From: a bacterium
GTDB taxonomy: Bacteria; Zhuqueibacterota; QNDG01; JABMRT01
Direction of reading: 5' to 3'
Assembly: GCA_016931355.1 (NCBI GenBank)
Contig: JAFGEX010000186.1
Location: forward strand, 1 to 32,890
DNA length: 32,890 bases
The position numbers were made by a program, and so were the translations under genes. Below are positions 19,158 to 28,122 of the stretch, piece after piece; the stretch's first letter is position 1; each line of letters starts with the position of its first letter. The notes beneath the pieces were generated by a model. That model was not told where the DNA came from. It worked only from the letters and a program-made list of their open reading frames with translations, and did no database searches.

Positions 19158-19266
19158 ATTGAAAATCCCCGCCGTTTGAAGCGGGGAATCTTCGATGAGC
19201 AGGGGAAGAGACACAAAAATTCATATGCATTCGCCGGGGAAAATCCCCGGGAAATGCGTTCGCAGA
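19158..19266 (-). repeat. Two-hairpin REP-doublet-like repeat, copy 1 (capD leader)
   Basis: Reverse complement tctgcgaacgcatttcccggggattttccccggcgaatgcatatgaatttttgtgtctcttcccctgctcatcgaagattccccgcttcaaacggcggggattttcaa aligns with the copy at 26986-27106. Confidence 0.65.
19227..19257. other. Hairpin GCATTcgCCGGGGAaaaTCCCCGGgaAATGC immediately upstream of capD
   Basis: 5 bp + 2 mismatches + 7 bp with a 3-nt loop, read directly; ends 16 nt before ATG 19274. Confidence 0.75.
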
Positions 19267-19273
19267 TGGATCC

Positions 19274-21142
19274 ATGAAAAAACGCCTTTACGAAATCAAT
19301 GATTTTCTGAACAGCCTGAGCATGGGAAGGCGGAGACTGATCAAGATGGCCGCTGATGGGGGGCTCATCGCCCTCGCCTATGCATTATCCTTTGATCTGC
19401 GGTTTGATTTTGCGGTGCCGGATACCGAATCCACGCTGTGCATGTTAACCTTACCGGTGATGGTGGGGCTTTCCCTTCCCATTTACCTGTTTTCAGGCGT
19501 CTATAAGGGTTTCTGGATGTATTGGAGCGTCCGGGATCTCAAACAGCTGGTCATCGTTCACGCCTTCTGCACGCTCGCTTTTTCCGTCCTGGCTCTTTTT
19601 GCCTGGTATCTCGGTTTTCCCCTCATTCCCAGGTCCATCATCATCATCCATTATTTCATCGGCATTCTTTTTCTAGCCAGTCTGCGAACAGGATACCGCT
19701 TGTTCCTGGAGGCATCCATCTCGGATAGGGGAACAGTCAACAGACGCCTCCTGATTGTAGGCGCGGGGAATTCAGGTGAGATGCTGATCAGCCAGATTCA
19801 GACTGATCCGAATCTTCGCTGCAAGGTCGTCGGATTGATTGACGATGATGAGGCCAAGTGGAACCGTTCGATTCACGGCGTCAAGGTCCTGGGCGGGCGG
19901 CAAACAATCGTCCAAGCCGTCGAACAGACCCAGGCGGACGAAATCATCATTGCCGTTCCTTCAGCGTCATCGAAAAAAATGCAGGCCATTGCATTCGAAT
20001 GCGAGAGGACAGGCCTTCCCTTTCGAATCGTACCTGGACCCAGCGAACTCGTGGATGGCAGGGTTTCGTTCAGCCGGATCCGGCCGGTTCGGATAGAGGA
20101 CATCCTCGGCCGCGAGCAAAGCGAAATGGACGAAGACCGGGTGCGCCACCTGATCAAGGGGAAAAGGATCCTGGTGACGGGCGCCGCTGGCTCCATCGGA
20201 TCGGAACTCTGCGCACAGATTCTGCGGTTCAAGCCCTCCGCACTCCTGGCGATCGACAGGGATGAAAACCAGTGCTTTTATCTGAGCAACCGCATTTCGG
20301 AAAACGGGTCCGTCACTTGCCTGGTTGCGGATGCGGCGAACCGAAAAAAAATGGAATTGCTTTTCCGGGAACATAAACCGCAGATCGTTTTCCATTCGGC
20401 GGCATACAAGCATGTCCCCTGCATGGAGGCTGTTCCGGAAGAGGCCGTCCGGAATAATCTCGGCGCGACCCTGGTGATGACAGATCTGTCCTTGAAGCAC
20501 GGTATCGAACATTTCATTCAAATTTCCACGGACAAAGCCGTGCATCCTTCAAACATCATGGGCGCATCCAAACGTCTTTGCGAAATAACGATCCAGAACA
20601 TTGCGCGTAGGGGGGTGAAGGGATTTATATCGGTCCGTTTCGGCAATGTGATCGGAAGCCAAGGCAGCGTGTTCACGGTGTTCGAAGAACAGATCCGCAA
20701 CGGAAAACCGGTGACCGTGACGCATCCGGATATGAGGCGTTTTTTCATGACCATTCCGGAGGCTTGCCGACTTGTGCTCGAAGCCGCATCCAGCACCAAA
20801 GGCTGCCTGTTCATGCTTGAAATGGGGGAGTCGATCCGCATCGCGGATTTGGCGCGGCACATGATTTCACTCGCGGGGCTCAGGCCGGACGAAGACATAC
20901 CGATCCTTTTCACGGGGCTCAGACCCGGCGAAAAGATTGAGGAAAAGCTGATATACGAACATGAAAAACCCGTCCGATCCGCCAACCCGAAAATTTTCAC
21001 CATCGCATGCAACGGCAAAACGCCGAAGGGGCTTGAGAAAAACCTGAGGGAGATCGTGAAACTCGCGGATGACATGCAGACGGAAAAAATGATCGGAAGA
21101 ATCCGGAAGTTGATCCCCGAATACAAACCGGATCAGGTTTAG
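19274..21142 (+). CDS. CapD/WbpM/PglF-like nucleoside-diphosphate-sugar 4,6-dehydratase
   Basis: N-terminal hydrophobic segments, LLIVGAGNSGEMLI, VTGAAGSIGSELCAQIL Rossmann motif, STDKAVHPSNIMGASKR. Confidence 0.93.
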   Translation: MKKRLYEINDFLNSLSMGRRRLIKMAADGGLIALAYALSFDLRFDFAVPDTESTLCMLTLPVMVGLSLPIYLFSGVYKGFWMYWSVRDLKQLVIVHAFCTLAFSVLALFAWYLGFPLIPRSIIIIHYFIGILFLASLRTGYRLFLEASISDRGTVNRRLLIVGAGNSGEMLISQIQTDPNLRCKVVGLIDDDEAKWNRSIHGVKVLGGRQTIVQAVEQTQADEIIIAVPSASSKKMQAIAFECERTGLPFRIVPGPSELVDGRVSFSRIRPVRIEDILGREQSEMDEDRVRHLIKGKRILVTGAAGSIGSELCAQILRFKPSALLAIDRDENQCFYLSNRISENGSVTCLVADAANRKKMELLFREHKPQIVFHSAAYKHVPCMEAVPEEAVRNNLGATLVMTDLSLKHGIEHFIQISTDKAVHPSNIMGASKRLCEITIQNIARRGVKGFISVRFGNVIGSQGSVFTVFEEQIRNGKPVTVTHPDMRRFFMTIPEACRLVLEAASSTKGCLFMLEMGESIRIADLARHMISLAGLRPDEDIPILFTGLRPGEKIEEKLIYEHEKPVRSANPKIFTIACNGKTPKGLEKNLREIVKLADDMQTEKMIGRIRKLIPEYKPDQV

Positions 21143-21229
21143 GCGGAGCCGGCTGGAATGAACGGTGACGCAGGCGGTTCGCCGGCGGGAACGGCAGCGG
21201 CCTTGGGACGGGGCGTATCGATTTACGGC

Positions 21230-21257
21230 TTGACATTGATGGGTGAATCCCTATCTT
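21230..21257 (+). promoter_or_regulatory. Putative sigma70-type promoter for the YjbH-like transcription unit
   Basis: TTGACA-N16-TATCTT, about 30 nt upstream of the start at 21289. Confidence 0.45.
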
Positions 21258-21288
21258 TCCGGAAGAGGATGCCGGCCGAGGGCGCGAC

Positions 21289-22524
21289 TTGATGAGAAGC
21301 GTGTTCATTCTCCTTTTGAGTTTTTTGTTCTTCTCGGGATGGGGACGGATTGAAGCGCAGGAGGCTCCGTCATCCGTCGAATCGGTGCGGGACGCGTTGA
21401 TCCGACTGGGTTTTGAGAATGTGGCGGCATACGAGGATTCGGCCGACTTGGCCGTCACCTATGAAAACAGGATTTACCGGTATGAAATCAAGGCTGTCCG
21501 GGAGATATTCAAGCTTGTTCCGGAATTCCAATTGGACGGGAAGCGGTTGATCCTCATCCCCCAGAAGAGGGGAATTCCCGTCGCGGCAATTGTTGTTGAT
21601 CCCGATCGAGGGGCGCAGATTTACAGAGCGGAATATATGCAGGAAAAGAAAAACCGTGCAAAAATAGAAGTGAACATGGACGTTGAACCGTATTGGAAGA
21701 GACTGGATCGGATGAAACCGGGGAATTCGTCGTTCATGAAAATCGATTTTTACATCCATCCCCAATTCAAGGCCCAGTTGGGGAATTTCAGGGATGCGGT
21801 GCAGTCACAGATCAACCTGGCGCCTGCCGTATCCACCTCCCTGTGGAAGGGCATGCGTTTCTCGGTACAGTGGATTTTCCCCCTTCAGAACGACCTCGGA
21901 CCGGAGGGTGATGATGGAAGGCCGGGCTTTGTGACCTTGAATCAGACCCTTCGGTTGCCCTTCCGATCGTTCCTCTCAGGGTCCCTCGGCTATTTTTCCC
22001 AGAACCGGTACGGCGTGGACCTGGAAATCAAGAAATTTTGGTGCAATGGTCAAATTGCGGCGGCCGCTGATCTCGGGTATACGGGCTTCGCCCAATATTA
22101 TCAGAATGGCTGGTATTACTCTGATCCGGGATGGTGGACCTATTTTTTCAGCGTGGAAGCCCGCTCCGCAGTTTATGATTTCACGGCCAGGCTGACATGT
22201 GGAAAATTCATTTACCGGGACAGCGGTTTCCGGTTGGATGTGCTCAGGCAGTTCGGCGAAATCGCAGTCGGTTTTTTTGCGCTCAAGACGGGGGAGGGGA
22301 CGAATGGGGGATTTTCCTTCAACATTCCTCTGTTCCCATCCAAGCGGGGATATCCCAGACGATTTCGCGTCAGCCCGGCGGTGGGGATCCCCTTTTCCTA
22401 CCGCTACAAGGGATTGCCCCAGTACGGCCTGCAATACTCGACCTCAAACGGGTTGGATGAATTTCTGGAAAATTTGAATCCTGACTTTATCGGGAATCAA
22501 CTGAGAAAAAGCCTGATAGATTGA
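21289..22524 (+). CDS. YjbH-like protein, resembling the C-terminal/beta-barrel portion
   Basis: Signal-peptide-like start; RDALIRLGFENVAAY; late segment FRLDVLRQFGEIAVGFFALKTGEGTNGGFSFNIPLFPSKR recalls the C-terminal part of YjbH-type proteins. Confidence 0.6.
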   Translation: MMRSVFILLLSFLFFSGWGRIEAQEAPSSVESVRDALIRLGFENVAAYEDSADLAVTYENRIYRYEIKAVREIFKLVPEFQLDGKRLILIPQKRGIPVAAIVVDPDRGAQIYRAEYMQEKKNRAKIEVNMDVEPYWKRLDRMKPGNSSFMKIDFYIHPQFKAQLGNFRDAVQSQINLAPAVSTSLWKGMRFSVQWIFPLQNDLGPEGDDGRPGFVTLNQTLRLPFRSFLSGSLGYFSQNRYGVDLEIKKFWCNGQIAAAADLGYTGFAQYYQNGWYYSDPGWWTYFFSVEARSAVYDFTARLTCGKFIYRDSGFRLDVLRQFGEIAVGFFALKTGEGTNGGFSFNIPLFPSKRGYPRRFRVSPAVGIPFSYRYKGLPQYGLQYSTSNGLDEFLENLNPDFIGNQLRKSLID

Positions 22525-22542
22525 CCGCAATCCAACGAAAGG

Positions 22543-23763
22543 ATGAACCCAGCCATGAAAAACCAAATGATGCGGCAGTTTCTCGGAATGCTCGGAATCC
22601 TTCTGATCGCATTCTCCTGCCAGAACAGGAAGGTGAATCCTCTCGACCCCGAACCATTGGGAAAAGTTTTGCCAGGATATCAGATAGCGAGGGTGAGAAG
22701 GACGATCACGGGACTGGTCATGGACCGCTCCACAGAGCTCGCCATACCCGATGTCATGGTCACGGTGATCGACACGACCGGCGGGCTTGATTCCACCATT
22801 GCAGTTGGAACGACCAATCTTTCCGGAAGGTTCGACATACCCGGCATTCCAAACGACACCCTGCTGGTCTATTTTTCCAAGGATGGATATATCGACGCCA
22901 CCATTACGGCCTATGTCCAGTATTCCTACTGGAGCGTTGATCTGAAAACCACGGCGCTTATTCCACTGGGAATGAAAGCGGTCATCGGATCCGCCGGCGG
23001 AAGCCTGACCGATACGGATGAAGAAGGAGACATCATCCGCCTGGATATTCCTGCCGGGGCATTGAATTCGGATGTGGAAATCACGATCACCCATCTGCAG
23101 GGCGTGGACGTTCCGTTTTATCCGCCCGAGGGGCGGCTTTCCTATGCCACTGCCCACTTCGGTCCGGAGGGGACTTTGTTTCAAAAACCAGTGATGATCA
23201 CCATGCCGCTTCCCCAGGTCATGACGCCCGGCGTGGAGCTGCCTTTGTATTCGTATGGCGGGATTCTCCGTGTCAAATGGGAAGACACCGGCATTCAGGC
23301 AAAGGTGGACGACGACGGCCTCACCGCGACCGCGCAGGTTGATCATTTTAGCGTCTATTCCCTCATGCCCGAAGTACAGGTGATCGACGCAGCGGTGGAT
23401 ACGTTGTGGGAACAGTATGAATTGCTGCCCAGCGCATACGGTGCCTTCACGGTGACCTATGAAGACCGGCCGGACAACCTGGGCCCCGAGTTTGTTGAAT
23501 TTCCGAACGGCACCGACGGACTAAACCGCTCCACGCTGATCTACATGTTTGAGCAGTATTACGGTGTTTCTTTCAACGCATCCAGGATTGAAACAATCTA
23601 TTATCAGTCGACTCGGGGCCTGTACCCGTTCCGAGTCATCCGAGGAATCATTTTTACGGGAGAAATGATCCTGCAGGATCCGTTGAGAACCGTTTATGCA
23701 ATCAAATGCATCAAACGTCCAATGGTCGTATATACGGCTCATGACCAGGGTTGCGTGAACTAG
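22543..23763 (+). CDS. Lipoprotein with carboxypeptidase-regulatory-like and ZU5-like domains
   Basis: Lipobox-like LLIAFSC; ITGLVMDRSTELAIPDVMVTVIDT...GTTNLSGRFDIPGIP; SAGGSLTDTDEEGDIIRLDIPAGALNSDVEITI. Confidence 0.65.
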   Translation: MNPAMKNQMMRQFLGMLGILLIAFSCQNRKVNPLDPEPLGKVLPGYQIARVRRTITGLVMDRSTELAIPDVMVTVIDTTGGLDSTIAVGTTNLSGRFDIPGIPNDTLLVYFSKDGYIDATITAYVQYSYWSVDLKTTALIPLGMKAVIGSAGGSLTDTDEEGDIIRLDIPAGALNSDVEITITHLQGVDVPFYPPEGRLSYATAHFGPEGTLFQKPVMITMPLPQVMTPGVELPLYSYGGILRVKWEDTGIQAKVDDDGLTATAQVDHFSVYSLMPEVQVIDAAVDTLWEQYELLPSAYGAFTVTYEDRPDNLGPEFVEFPNGTDGLNRSTLIYMFEQYYGVSFNASRIETIYYQSTRGLYPFRVIRGIIFTGEMILQDPLRTVYAIKCIKRPMVVYTAHDQGCVN

Positions 23764-23868
23764 CGATTCAATCGGCAGCATGCGGATTCCGGAAATCCGG
23801 CATGATCCGGCGGCAGGCATTCGAGGAGAATCGGAGGGAAATCCATCCGAAGGGGAACGAAAATCCCG

Positions 23869-24597
23869 ATGAGGCACGGAACGCTGGCACGGGTTTTGGT
23901 TTTAAGCCTTTTCACGGGCCTTTGCCGGCAGGCGGGCATCGCCCAGTCTCTCATGGGAACGACGGGGCTGGTCATGATTCCGACAGCCGAACTGGCCGGG
24001 GACGGCGAGGTTTTTTTCGGCGTGAACGGCGGGAACCGGCAATACAACGTGCTACATCCTGGCAAGTTCCACCATTATTCCTATTTTGCCACCCTGGGAT
24101 ACCTGCCTTTTCTTGAGGTGTCCCTCCGTCTGACGCGTGATTATCATTTTTCGTGGAGCTTCGGGGACGAGGGGCTCGGAGACCGCATGGCAAGCGTCCG
24201 GCTCAAGCTGATGGGGGAGACCCGGTACAGGCCCTCCATCGTTTTGGGCGTTCATGACATTTTATCGGCATTTGAAAAGTCAACAGTTGTCTATTTCAAC
24301 GCCCTTTATCTGGTAGGTTCCAAACACATCCATCCGCTGGGCAGTCAGTTTCGGCTGGGTTTGCATATGGGTTATGGATCGGATCAAATGGAAGCAAGGC
24401 GCCATGAATATACCGGCTGGTTTGGAGGGATCTCAATCGAGGTGGTTTCCCGCTTGACTCTCATGATGGAACATGATTCCGAAAAGTTCAACGGGGGGGC
24501 GGAGGTTCAGTTTTTTGATCGTATTCGGATTCTATTAGCCTTGATCCACTTGGACTCGTTTGCAGGAAGCCTGAGTTATTCGTTAAGGCTGCAGTAG
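23869..24597 (+). CDS. YjbH-like protein, resembling the N-terminal portion
   Basis: GTTGLVMIPTAELAGDGEVFFGVNGGN..., then barrel-like alternating strands (LPFLEVSLRLTRDYH); signal-peptide-like N-terminus. Confidence 0.6.
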   Translation: MRHGTLARVLVLSLFTGLCRQAGIAQSLMGTTGLVMIPTAELAGDGEVFFGVNGGNRQYNVLHPGKFHHYSYFATLGYLPFLEVSLRLTRDYHFSWSFGDEGLGDRMASVRLKLMGETRYRPSIVLGVHDILSAFEKSTVVYFNALYLVGSKHIHPLGSQFRLGLHMGYGSDQMEARRHEYTGWFGGISIEVVSRLTLMMEHDSEKFNGGAEVQFFDRIRILLALIHLDSFAGSLSYSLRLQ

Positions 24598-24614
24598 GCA
24601 TGGGCCTACCTGCC

Positions 24615-24638
24615 AGGAGGGGTCTCAATCCTCCTTTT
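24615..24638 (+). terminator. Possible weak rho-independent terminator after the YjbH-N-like gene
   Basis: AGGAGG-ggtctcaat-CCTCCT followed by TTT. Confidence 0.45.
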
Positions 24639-24753
24639 ATCCGGTGTTTAAGAGACCGGACCACAACAGGGTCTGGCGGGATTCTTGAAAGGGTATCCAT
24701 GGAGGGGACGTGAACCCCGTCGTGCGATGAGGAATCATTTCAAGGAGGTGATT

Positions 24754-26763
24754 ATGGTGATAAAGGCGTTCCGGATGATCGGCTTTTCGGGAATGGTCAT
24801 TTTTTCATTCGCCTGCTTTGCGGGAGAAAATGGGGTTCAAAGTGCCCAGGAAACGGCTTTCGGGATATTCAACTCCAATTTCAATGAAAAGGGACCTGCA
24901 GTCGCCTATAATTTCAAGGATGATGAATATCTCGTGATTTCCGTTGTGAACGACACCGTTTTCGGCAACCGCGACATTTACGGGCAGTTCGTCCGGTCGG
25001 ACGGTTCGTTGAAAGGCGACCGGTTCCCGATCTGCAGCCATCCAGCCGACCAGGCCTGTCCGGATGTGGCGTACGGCATTGAAAACCAGTATCTCGTCGT
25101 CTGGTGCGACTTCCGTGTGCCCAATGGAGACATTTACGCCGCAAGACTTGACGCCTCCGGCATGAAACTTGAAAATGCGATCACCGTGGCGGATACGACG
25201 TTCCCCATCTGCGATCAGGACAGTGTGCAGCTTCATCCTCGCATTGCGCACAATCCAATGGACAACAATTATCTTGTCGTTTGGATGGATTACCGGAACT
25301 CCTATTTTCCGGGGGATCCATGCCCGTGCGAGCCGGGGCAGGAGTACGCCGGTCTGCCGCCGATCAATACCGATGTATACGGACAGAGGCTGGACATGTC
25401 GGGCCTGCCGATTCCTCCGGAAGAACCGGCGAGCACCAAGGTCAATTTCCCCGTTGCAGTCGACCGCGGCATCGATGAGTATTTCCAAGATGTCGCCTAT
25501 TGCGGGGGAGGCGACCGCCCCGATGAATGGCTCGTGGTTTTTTGCAGATATAATCTCGATTATCAACTGCCTGGAGCCGAGGTTGTTCACGGCGTCCGGA
25601 TCGACGGGAAGACAGGGAATTGGATCGATACATGGGGAAATCTCATTGTGCCGGTGCTGTCCGGGACAACCGGAGCGCAGGAGGGACCGCCCTGGAAACC
25701 GCATTTCCCGATCGGCGCCTCTGAATCGCAAAGCCAGCATGCCCAGAGTCTTTCCCAGGCGAGTCCCCGCGTGGAGAGCAACACCGGCTGGCTGCTCCAC
25801 AACGGCCAAGCCCAGGCTCTGAATCCTTATCCGCTGCCGGAATGCCTGGTGATCTGGACCGAATTTCCCATTCCATCCCGAATCAGGGCTCAGCGGATTG
25901 CGTATTTCCCGGATTCCACGGCATACAGACGGGGACTCAAGACGGAACGAGGCGCTAACGGCATGTTCACGCTCGTCCCGCTGGACAGCATGGGCCGTCC
26001 ATCCGATCCCATCGGTGACTGGATCATCTGGAATAACCTGACGCTCACGTCCGACGATTACCAGCATGATTACGGTAATATTTCGTTCAATCCAATCTCC
26101 GGCGATTATCTCGCCGTATGGGACGATTGGAGCAGGACGGAATGGGATGGAACGTATCCGAACGATGGCCCATACAATGCTCCCCCGGCGGATATCGCGG
26201 GTCGGCGTCTTTTTTTGAATCCGCAAGATTCGAGTATTGTGTTCATGGACAGGGACGCCGCCTGGAAAGCCGGCGATTCTGCACCATTTCTCATCGCGGC
26301 CACACCCACTGACGAAGGGAATTATTCCTATCCAGGGATCGCCTACGGCTATTCCAATGATCAATTTCTGGTCGCCTATGAATGGGAGCAGGACAACGAT
26401 GACCGGGCGATCGACGTGCAGGGCGTGTCGTTCCACGAAGTGCCCACCGCCATTGCATCCAAACAGCCGGGACCAGCGCCGGTTTCTCCCATCCTCGCCT
26501 CCAATTTCCCGAATCCCTTCAATCCGGGAACGTCCATATCGTTCCGCCTCTCATCCGCGGGGCGCACCCAGGTCAGGGTATTCGATGCCCTGGGAAGGGA
26601 CGTTGCCGTGCTGATGGACGAGAACAGGCAGGCGGGCCAAACCGCGGTTTATTGGAACGGCCTGGACGCAGCCGGACATCCGGCCGCATCCGGCGTCTAT
26701 TTCTATGAGATCCGTTCCGGCCTTGATTCAGCCACACGGGGGAAAATGCTGCTCCTGCGGTAG
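24754..26763 (+). CDS. Secreted protein with repeated YLVVW.D.R...DIYG-type motifs and a C-terminal FlgD-like/T9SS type A sorting domain
   Basis: SD AAGGAGG before ATG 24754; signal-peptide-like MVIKAFRMIGFSGMVIFSFACFAG; C-terminal SNFPNPFNPGTSISFRLSSAGRTQVRVFDALGRDVAVL...GVYFYEIRSG. Confidence 0.85.
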   Translation: MVIKAFRMIGFSGMVIFSFACFAGENGVQSAQETAFGIFNSNFNEKGPAVAYNFKDDEYLVISVVNDTVFGNRDIYGQFVRSDGSLKGDRFPICSHPADQACPDVAYGIENQYLVVWCDFRVPNGDIYAARLDASGMKLENAITVADTTFPICDQDSVQLHPRIAHNPMDNNYLVVWMDYRNSYFPGDPCPCEPGQEYAGLPPINTDVYGQRLDMSGLPIPPEEPASTKVNFPVAVDRGIDEYFQDVAYCGGGDRPDEWLVVFCRYNLDYQLPGAEVVHGVRIDGKTGNWIDTWGNLIVPVLSGTTGAQEGPPWKPHFPIGASESQSQHAQSLSQASPRVESNTGWLLHNGQAQALNPYPLPECLVIWTEFPIPSRIRAQRIAYFPDSTAYRRGLKTERGANGMFTLVPLDSMGRPSDPIGDWIIWNNLTLTSDDYQHDYGNISFNPISGDYLAVWDDWSRTEWDGTYPNDGPYNAPPADIAGRRLFLNPQDSSIVFMDRDAAWKAGDSAPFLIAATPTDEGNYSYPGIAYGYSNDQFLVAYEWEQDNDDRAIDVQGVSFHEVPTAIASKQPGPAPVSPILASNFPNPFNPGTSISFRLSSAGRTQVRVFDALGRDVAVLMDENRQAGQTAVYWNGLDAAGHPAASGVYFYEIRSGLDSATRGKMLLLR

Positions 26764-26957
26764 AGCCGCATCTGAGAATGATAAGGCAACAAGAGATCGT
26801 CATAACGATGGATGCCGTTTGGGGTTCTTCCCGAGGCACTGGGCGGAGGAAGATCAGCATCAGGATGTGAAGAGCGGTGATTCATGGAAATCGGCATCCA
26901 GATTCCCGGACGAGAAGGAAAAGAAGTCCTTATGCCGGTTGAAAAAAGTTGGAACTC

Positions 26958-26984
26958 AGCCCCGGAGATTGTCCGGGGCTTTTT
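26958..26984 (+). terminator. Rho-independent terminator downstream of the T9SS-type secreted protein gene
   Basis: AGCCCCGGA-gattg-TCCGGGGCT followed by TTTT; perfect 9-bp stem. Confidence 0.88.
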
Positions 26985-26985
26985 C

Positions 26986-27106
26986 TTTGAATCTGACAGC
27001 GAGCGCATTCCCCTTTAGCTTGCCGCGGGGTAAGCGAGCGAATACAAACAAATTTTTCCCTACAGATCGAAGATTCCCCGCCGCTTGCGGCGGGGAGCTT
27101 TAATCC
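26986..27106 (+). repeat. Two-hairpin REP-doublet-like repeat, copy 2
   Basis: tttgaatctgacagcgagcgcattcccctttagcttgccgcggggtaagcgagcgaatac...cagatcgaagattccccgccgcttgcggcggggagctttaatcccg; perfect 10-bp stem TCCCCGCCGC-tt-GCGGCGGGGA at 27075-27096. Confidence 0.85.
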
Positions 27107-27153
27107 CGGTTTTCGCATTCAGACCTGCGGGGAGGCATGAAAGGAGCCTGAAA

Positions 27154-27852
27154 ATGCCGAACAACGGTATCCGTATCGAAGTCCCGCCTGCAGTTCTGGA
27201 AAACTGGCAGGAAATCGCGGACATTCTGGCCGGGCTGATCAAAATCCCGGCAGCCCTGATCATGCGGCATACGCATCCTGACATCGAAGTTTTTGTCTCG
27301 AGCCGGAGCCGGAACAATCCCTACCGGCCCGGGGCCAGGGAAATCCTGCACGGATCCGGACTTTATTGTGAAAGGGTGCTGAAGACGCGGGAGAAGCTCC
27401 TTGTGCCCGATGCGCTTTCCGATACGGACTGGAAAAACAATCCGGACGTCAAGCACAACATGATCGCCTATCTGGGCTTTCCCATTCTGCTGCCGAACGA
27501 TGAGCCGTTCGGAACCCTCTGCGTTCTCGACAACAAGCGGAATGAATTTTCAGTCACGCTCGAAAGGCTGATGATACAGTTTCGAAACCTGATCCAATCC
27601 CATCTTGAAATGATCTATGTGAACCAGATTCTGGGCGAAAGGGACAGGAAGCTGACGGATTATCTCGGAGAGCTTCAGACCCTGCGGGGTCTGGTCTCGA
27701 TTTGTTCGAACTGCAAGAACATCCAGGACAATCAGGGTCATTGGATTCCCATCGAGCATTATCTGATCCGGAATCCGGTGGCGAAATTCAGCCACAGCAT
27801 ATGCCCTGAATGTATGAAAAAACTATATCCGGACATGAACGATAATCAATGA
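27154..27852 (+). CDS. GAF-domain protein with C-terminal four-cysteine motif
   Basis: ATG 27154 with upstream AAAGGAG; GAF-like VLKTREKLLVPDALSDTDWKNNPDVKHNMIAYLGFPILLPNDEPFGTLCVLD; C-terminal ICSNCKNIQDNQGHWIPIEHYL...SHSICPECMKKLYP. Confidence 0.8.
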   Translation: MPNNGIRIEVPPAVLENWQEIADILAGLIKIPAALIMRHTHPDIEVFVSSRSRNNPYRPGAREILHGSGLYCERVLKTREKLLVPDALSDTDWKNNPDVKHNMIAYLGFPILLPNDEPFGTLCVLDNKRNEFSVTLERLMIQFRNLIQSHLEMIYVNQILGERDRKLTDYLGELQTLRGLVSICSNCKNIQDNQGHWIPIEHYLIRNPVAKFSHSICPECMKKLYPDMNDNQ

Positions 27853-27870
27853 TGTCAGACCGCCGGAACA

Positions 27871-27993
27871 GGTATTGAAGCGCCCCGGCAGCGCGCTGCT
27901 GGGGAATTTTCGATCCGTAAGGAAGAAGACTTTTAGATTCGCTCGCTTACTCCATAGCAAGCAACGGGGAATGCGCTCGCTGCCAGATCAAAA
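27871..27993 (-). repeat. Two-hairpin REP-doublet-like repeat, copy 3 (inverted relative to copy 2)
   Basis: Reverse complement ttttgatctggcagcgagcgcattccccgttgcttgctatggagtaagcgagcgaatctaaaa...ttacggatcgaaaattccccagcagcgcgctgccggggcgcttcaatacc aligns along its length with copy 2. Confidence 0.85.
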
Positions 27994-28005
27994 CTCTCCG
28001 GTGGC

Positions 28006-28096
28006 GGGCTTCCAAAGGGATCTGCGATCTGTATCAGGAAAGGGAATTGATACTTCTATGCATTTTCCGTTGCAGGCTGCGGGGGATGCGCTCACG
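28006..28096 (-). repeat. Degenerate two-hairpin repeat, copy 4, in tandem with copy 3
   Basis: Reverse complement gtgagcgcatcccccgcagcctgcaacggaaaatgcatagaag...ttcctgatacagatcgcagatcccttt matches the same landmarks (gAGCGCATnCCCC ... ACAGATCG.AGATnCC). Confidence 0.55.
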
Positions 28097-28122
28097 GTCA
28101 TTGTCAAACGGCTTTTTCACGA

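Follow-up and report, generated by a model that had tools for sequence, protein, structure and literature searches.

A high-copy two-hairpin repeat that is probably a non-autonomous IS200/IS605-type transposon moved in trans

What are the hairpin repeats that lie between the genes of the 32,890-nucleotide stretch analysed here (the window), and how did they come to be there? The first-pass annotation had described four copies in the window; three full-length copies of about 117 nt were recovered, while the fourth proved to be a decayed fragment without hairpin B. The best copy, W2 (26987-27104, plus strand; covariance model 135.8 bits, E 6.4e-28; HMM 117.6 bits, scored in locus L047; consensus identity 0.90), has a TGAA target at 26988-26991 and an element that starts at 26992 (TCTGACAG...). 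Its left guide CATT (27006-27009) precedes hairpin A, the left-end palindrome (CCCCTTTAGCTTGCCGCGGGG, 27010-27030), and its right guide GATT (27072-27075) precedes hairpin B, the right-end palindrome (CCCCGCCGCTTGCGGCGGGG, 27076-27095), both palindromes being placed from the alignment and the sequence; the right cleavage site is TTAA, a variant of TCAA, at 27100-27103. W3 (27874-27992, minus strand; covariance model 113.1 bits, E 1.1e-22; HMM 100.3 bits; identity 0.84) has its element at 27987-27875 after the variant target TTGA, with guides CATT on the left and AATT on the right and the right cleavage site TCAA. The diverged copy W1 (19159-19274, minus strand; nhmmer 77.9 bits; consensus identity 0.67) follows TGGA, a variant of TGAA, at 19271-19274, and its element runs from 19270 to 19159, ending in TCAA, with the left guide CATT at 19256-19253. 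W4 (28017-28100, minus strand; nhmmer 28.5 bits, E 2.8e-7) matches only model positions 8-90; its left part is recognisable with the guide CATC, hairpin B has been lost, and its fold is no better than that of shuffles (z +0.40). Folded as single-strand DNA, the other window copies were not strikingly stable (z -2.2, -0.95 and +0.45), whereas the family consensus was (z -3.6). At 19271-19276, W1 adjoins a polysaccharide-biosynthesis gene (19274-21142) and reaches into the start codon of that gene (19274), and it may influence the gene's leader.

A genome-wide covariance-model scan had been proposed for finding further copies, and they were found in large numbers. The 16-mer ATCGAAGATTCCCCGC from the hairpin-B arm gave 301 matches across the host assembly (3.89 Mb) with up to two mismatches allowed, compared with 0 for the reversed control, and the covariance model R1 matched at least 149 places in the genome, with a best E of 5.5e-31. 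R1 was built from 21 copies, for which RNAalifold returned a poor structure (14 pairs), so that it is mainly a sequence model. The dispersed repeat family is real, since the 301 versus 0 matches and the model E-values exclude chance. Its consensus is TTGAATCTGACAGCGAGCGCATTCCCCGCGGCTTGCCGCGGGGTAAGCGAGCGAATCCAAATGTCTTTTTCCCTACAGATCGAAGATTCCCCGCCGCTTGCGGCGGGGAGCTTCAAT; the element is about 112 nt long, within a repeat of roughly 115-117 nt, contains no gene and is too small to code for a transposase, and the roughly 300 copies account for nearly 1% of the genome. Pairwise comparison of 131 full copies gave a median identity of 0.80, with 0.98 for the closest pairs, suggesting that a few copies are recent and that most are old. 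No published description of this family was found in the literature searched.

The layout that the annotation had seen in the window, hairpin A, spacer and hairpin B, was also observed here, with a spacer of about 25-30 nt and both hairpins in the same orientation. The palindromes are subterminal, close to both ends and on the same strand, and the element has no terminal inverted repeats (TCTGACAG vs GAAGCTCC). Pairing was likewise retained despite sequence change, as the annotation had proposed, and compensatory changes occurred in both hairpins across the family. At pair 7/14 of hairpin B we counted C-G 22, A-T 11 and G-C 3 (79% paired vs 48% when shuffled), and at pair 6/15 of hairpin A, C-G 28, G-C 12, T-G 9 and T-A 3 (85% vs 57%). 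These changes, together with the strong hairpins that the consensus forms as RNA (z -4.8) and the lower frequency of copies inside long open frames (57/116 vs 425/575 random positions), are what an immobile structured RNA or terminator family selected at gene ends would also produce. We nevertheless give that reading hardly any credence, because copies occur in both orientations, no Rfam family matched the repeat, tandem copies show a polarity, the spread across phyla is patchy (both described below), and the element is present or absent at eight orthologous loci with clean empty sites. The empty sites refute it as a sole explanation; copies may still act secondarily as terminators.

The ends of the element are sharp. 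In the aligned copies, information dropped to roughly 0 bits immediately beyond the conserved TTGAAT on the left and to at most 0.4 bits beyond the conserved TTCAAT on the right, and no target duplication was detected in 89 copies from the own genome. Twelve insertion loci of G009 were joined in silico without the element and searched for in G004, a sister species of the same genus. Intact, readable empty sites were present for 8 of the 12 loci, and all eight read TGAA followed directly by the flank, while filled sites read TGAA, then TCTGACAG...GAGCTTCAA, then the flank, indicating that the element starts after TGAA and ends in TCAA. For the own genome the boundary is uncertain by one base; 102/118 copies there have a T after TCAA. 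Exact excision from G004 would produce identical empty sites, and insertion and loss both fit the model. TGAA precedes the element in 87/95 copies. Several of the G009 insertions appear to use a TGA stop codon; in the own genome, insertion at TGA stop codons was not enriched (12/94 vs 57/460), and the orientation bias with respect to GC skew that is expected from lagging-strand targeting was not significant.

Filled and empty sites also agree with an AA that is either common to the two ends or duplicated at them, as expected of a DDE-type MITE (2-bp duplication) or an IS110-type element (AA core); an AA target duplication is formally possible, since it is indistinguishable from TGAA/TCAA ends. 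Such an origin is nonetheless very improbable in our judgement, because the two ends do not form an inverted repeat, TG before the AA is fixed in 8/8 empty sites just as the whole TGAA recurs among the genomic copies, and it leaves the two subterminal same-strand hairpins and the match of the guides unexplained.

This match concerns the tetranucleotides CATT (left) and GATT (right), which lie directly 5' of the CCCCG stems. IS608 inserts 3' of TTAC, has TCAA as its right cleavage site and carries the guides AAAG and GAAT 5' of its hairpins, with A+16 pairing with T-3 and A+17 with T-4 (PMC5934647). In the repeat studied here, the left cleavage site and guide are TGAA/CATT in 73/95 copies and the right ones TCAA/GATT in 76/95; the two guides differ at one base, and so do the two cleavage sites. 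In the IS608 structure the fourth bases of guide and cleavage site pair too, and under this scheme TGAA requires CA.T and TCAA requires GA.T, both of which are matched by CATT and GATT. The left guide starts 15 nt inside the element (14 nt after the cut) in the own genome, and 16 nt inside (15 nt after the cut) in a copy from Candidatus Manganitrophus and in IS608. On the plasmids of Manganitrophus, both sides of the lower hairpin-A stem have been exchanged (GCGCGTC/GACGCGC), while TGAA, CATT, GATT and TCAA are unchanged. The match of guides and targets is thus strong support for IS608-type recognition, short of proof, as the foot of the hairpin was picked after the sequence had been seen and the comparison is partly post hoc.

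Taken together, we consider it highly probable that the repeat is a non-autonomous single-strand transposon of the IS200/IS605 type, akin to the haloarchaeal palindrome-associated transposable elements (PATEs), and that a Y1/HUH transposase moves it in trans. The element would consist of a bare left end (hairpin A) and right end (hairpin B) only. By analogy with the IS608 mechanism, a transposase dimer supplied in trans would bind both hairpins on single-stranded DNA, CATT would pair with TGAA and GATT with TCAA and thereby place the cuts, and the excised circle would insert 3' of a new TGAA. The TGAA that remains intact to the left of a resident copy would be a target in its turn, and its reuse would build up head-to-tail arrays with the younger copy upstream. 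With score as a proxy for age, the upstream copy scored higher in 19/21 clean tandem pairs (p = 2e-4), the better preservation predicted when insertion takes place between an old copy and the TGAA in front of it. Full ends were required for these pairs, and most of the dropped cases in which the upstream copy was worse were one copy broken up by insertions in its hairpins. In the window, contrary to this trend, the decayed W4 lies 26 nt upstream of the better preserved W3. Like IS608, the element inserts 3' of a tetranucleotide, carries tetranucleotide guides on the 5' side of two hairpins of the same strand and has a near-equal left-end spacing, with cleavage sites of TTAC/TCAA in IS608 vs TGAA/TCAA here (PMC5934647); unlike IS608, it lacks tnpA and tnpB, uses another target and has extra lower stems around the guides.

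Judged by nearly all features that can be tested from sequence, the element works like the PATEs and belongs with them, its enzyme partner being presumed. With the PATEs of Haloquadratum walsbyi the element shares its non-coding size, subterminal palindromes that are related between left and right, the lack of terminal inverted repeats and of target duplication, a conserved terminal oligonucleotide that equals the target, core-deleted forms of about 50 nt, and smaller repeats that insert into the palindromes (PMC3119063). Its differences are that it is bacterial, targets TGAA, occurs in several phyla and has no IS605 partner that was found; its roughly 300 copies in one genome compare with 177-194 for all Haloquadratum PATE families together (PMC3119063). 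The short forms, seen at L170, L172 and L130, have a single hairpin in which the left half of hairpin A is joined to the right half of hairpin B. They resemble the terminal-only PATEs of 52 bp in Haloquadratum, which have been ascribed to repeat-mediated deletion (PMC3119063).

A second repeat of 45 nt (TCTTCAATAATTCATAAATACAATAGCTTGATCCCGCGYAGCGGG) was observed inside the hairpins of the element, in either orientation, in the sister genus represented by G004 and G009. A 17-mer from it occurred 44 and 25 times in these two genomes, respectively, and 0 times in the own genome. It lay in the loop after CTTG at eight loci (L137, L141, L145, L086, L088, L065, L146 and L142), at the 5' foot of hairpin B on the opposite strand at four (L139, L143, L166 and L147), and inserted in itself at positions 978 and 1024 of L255. 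This repeat resembles the SMR-A repeats of Haloquadratum, which target PATE palindromes (PMC3119063). In some own-genome copies (L009, L018, L025, L027, L012, L122, L191 and L220), hairpin A is bigger by about 20-24 nt of a second palindrome (CCCGGGCTTTGACCCGGGG), which is another insertion or duplication within the hairpin.

Within the order, the element was abundant in the own genome (G000), with 29 copies in G009, 20 in G004, 2 in G007 and 1 in G002, and it was absent from nearly all of the 82 genomes of the phylum examined. Exact matches to hairpin A were found in Syntrophaceae/Syntrophales, a groundwater deltaproteobacterium and a Nitrospirae MAG, and a copy was present on plasmids of Candidatus Manganitrophus (Nitrospirota). 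This patchy spread across phyla suggests horizontal transfer, with binning errors in MAGs as a potential explanation of single cases. No element was found in phages, nor in viral contigs searched with exact patterns only.

Consistent with the annotation, no transposase was detected among the 10 window proteins scanned, which include proteins of the polysaccharide-biosynthesis, GAF, DEAD-box helicase and aldo/keto reductase kinds, so that the mobiliser must act in trans. The annotation had looked to a REP doublet or BIME moved by a RAYT-type (TnpA-REP) enzyme, and had named a RAYT/IS200-like transposase flanked by the same hairpins as the gene to look for. No Y1_Tnp gene flanked by the ends of the element was found in the own genome, 118 relatives or 7 other host genomes, the flank scans covering 68 Y1 loci (0/68), a part of all Y1 matches, in host genomes that are fragmented and incomplete; three of the seven other host genomes, all fragmented MAGs, had no Y1_Tnp match at all. 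The sole Y1_Tnp match in the own genome is an incomplete gene that lies at the edge of a contig (L031, G000:C40:1-317), beside which lie the repeats GGGCGGCC...GGCCGCCC. The N-terminal side of this truncated gene was seen to run into unrelated palindromes (GGGCGGCCACAGG...GGCCGCCCCTACG), probably a third palindromic repeat family of this genome. In G004, a RAYT-like Y1 gene (L119, G004:C212:1-1400) is flanked by numerous copies of a further palindrome (TAGCCCACGACTTCAGTCGTGGGGTAA), with which it apparently forms a REP/RAYT pair separate from our element; as a mobiliser of the element this gene was rejected, being surrounded by a different repeat (TAGCCCACGACTTCAGTCGTGGG).

A REP doublet, REPIN or BIME would share with our repeat its high copy number, its hairpins and the lack of an internal gene, RAYT-like Y1 genes are present in related genomes, and the probable mode of movement, in trans by a Y1/HUH enzyme, would be common to both (PMC8266576, PMC3733652). 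However, REP-type classification appears improbable, because the two non-identical hairpins are always direct and never inverted, CATT and GATT rather than a GTAG/CGTC tag precede the palindromes, and ends and target (TGAA, with its eight empty sites) are fixed; in addition, the Y1 genes of G004 and the own genome adjoin other repeats, and none of those examined carries these hairpins. What stands of the RAYT proposal is its closeness in enzyme class, since RAYTs are relatives of the IS200/IS605 transposases within the HUH Y1 enzymes (PMC8266576).

The gene for the presumed mobilising enzyme may be missing from the assembly, which is 84% complete, or may have been lost. Another reading, which we regard as unlikely, is that there is no dedicated IS200/IS605 partner, and that the family has been moved across several phyla by an unrecognised or host-encoded HUH enzyme while itself being parasitised in one genus by the 45-nt hairpin-inserting mobile repeat. 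If true, this would amount to a two-tier system of transposase-less mobile DNA.

On the preferred reading, a non-autonomous IS200/IS605-type transposon moved in trans, the repeat would be a high-copy bacterial case of a transposase-less element of this type with clean empty sites. It would also put the IS608 guide rule to an independent test in nature, the changed target, TGAA, being accompanied by guides that differ accordingly, and it advises caution, in that hairpin repeats classed by eye as REPs can belong elsewhere.
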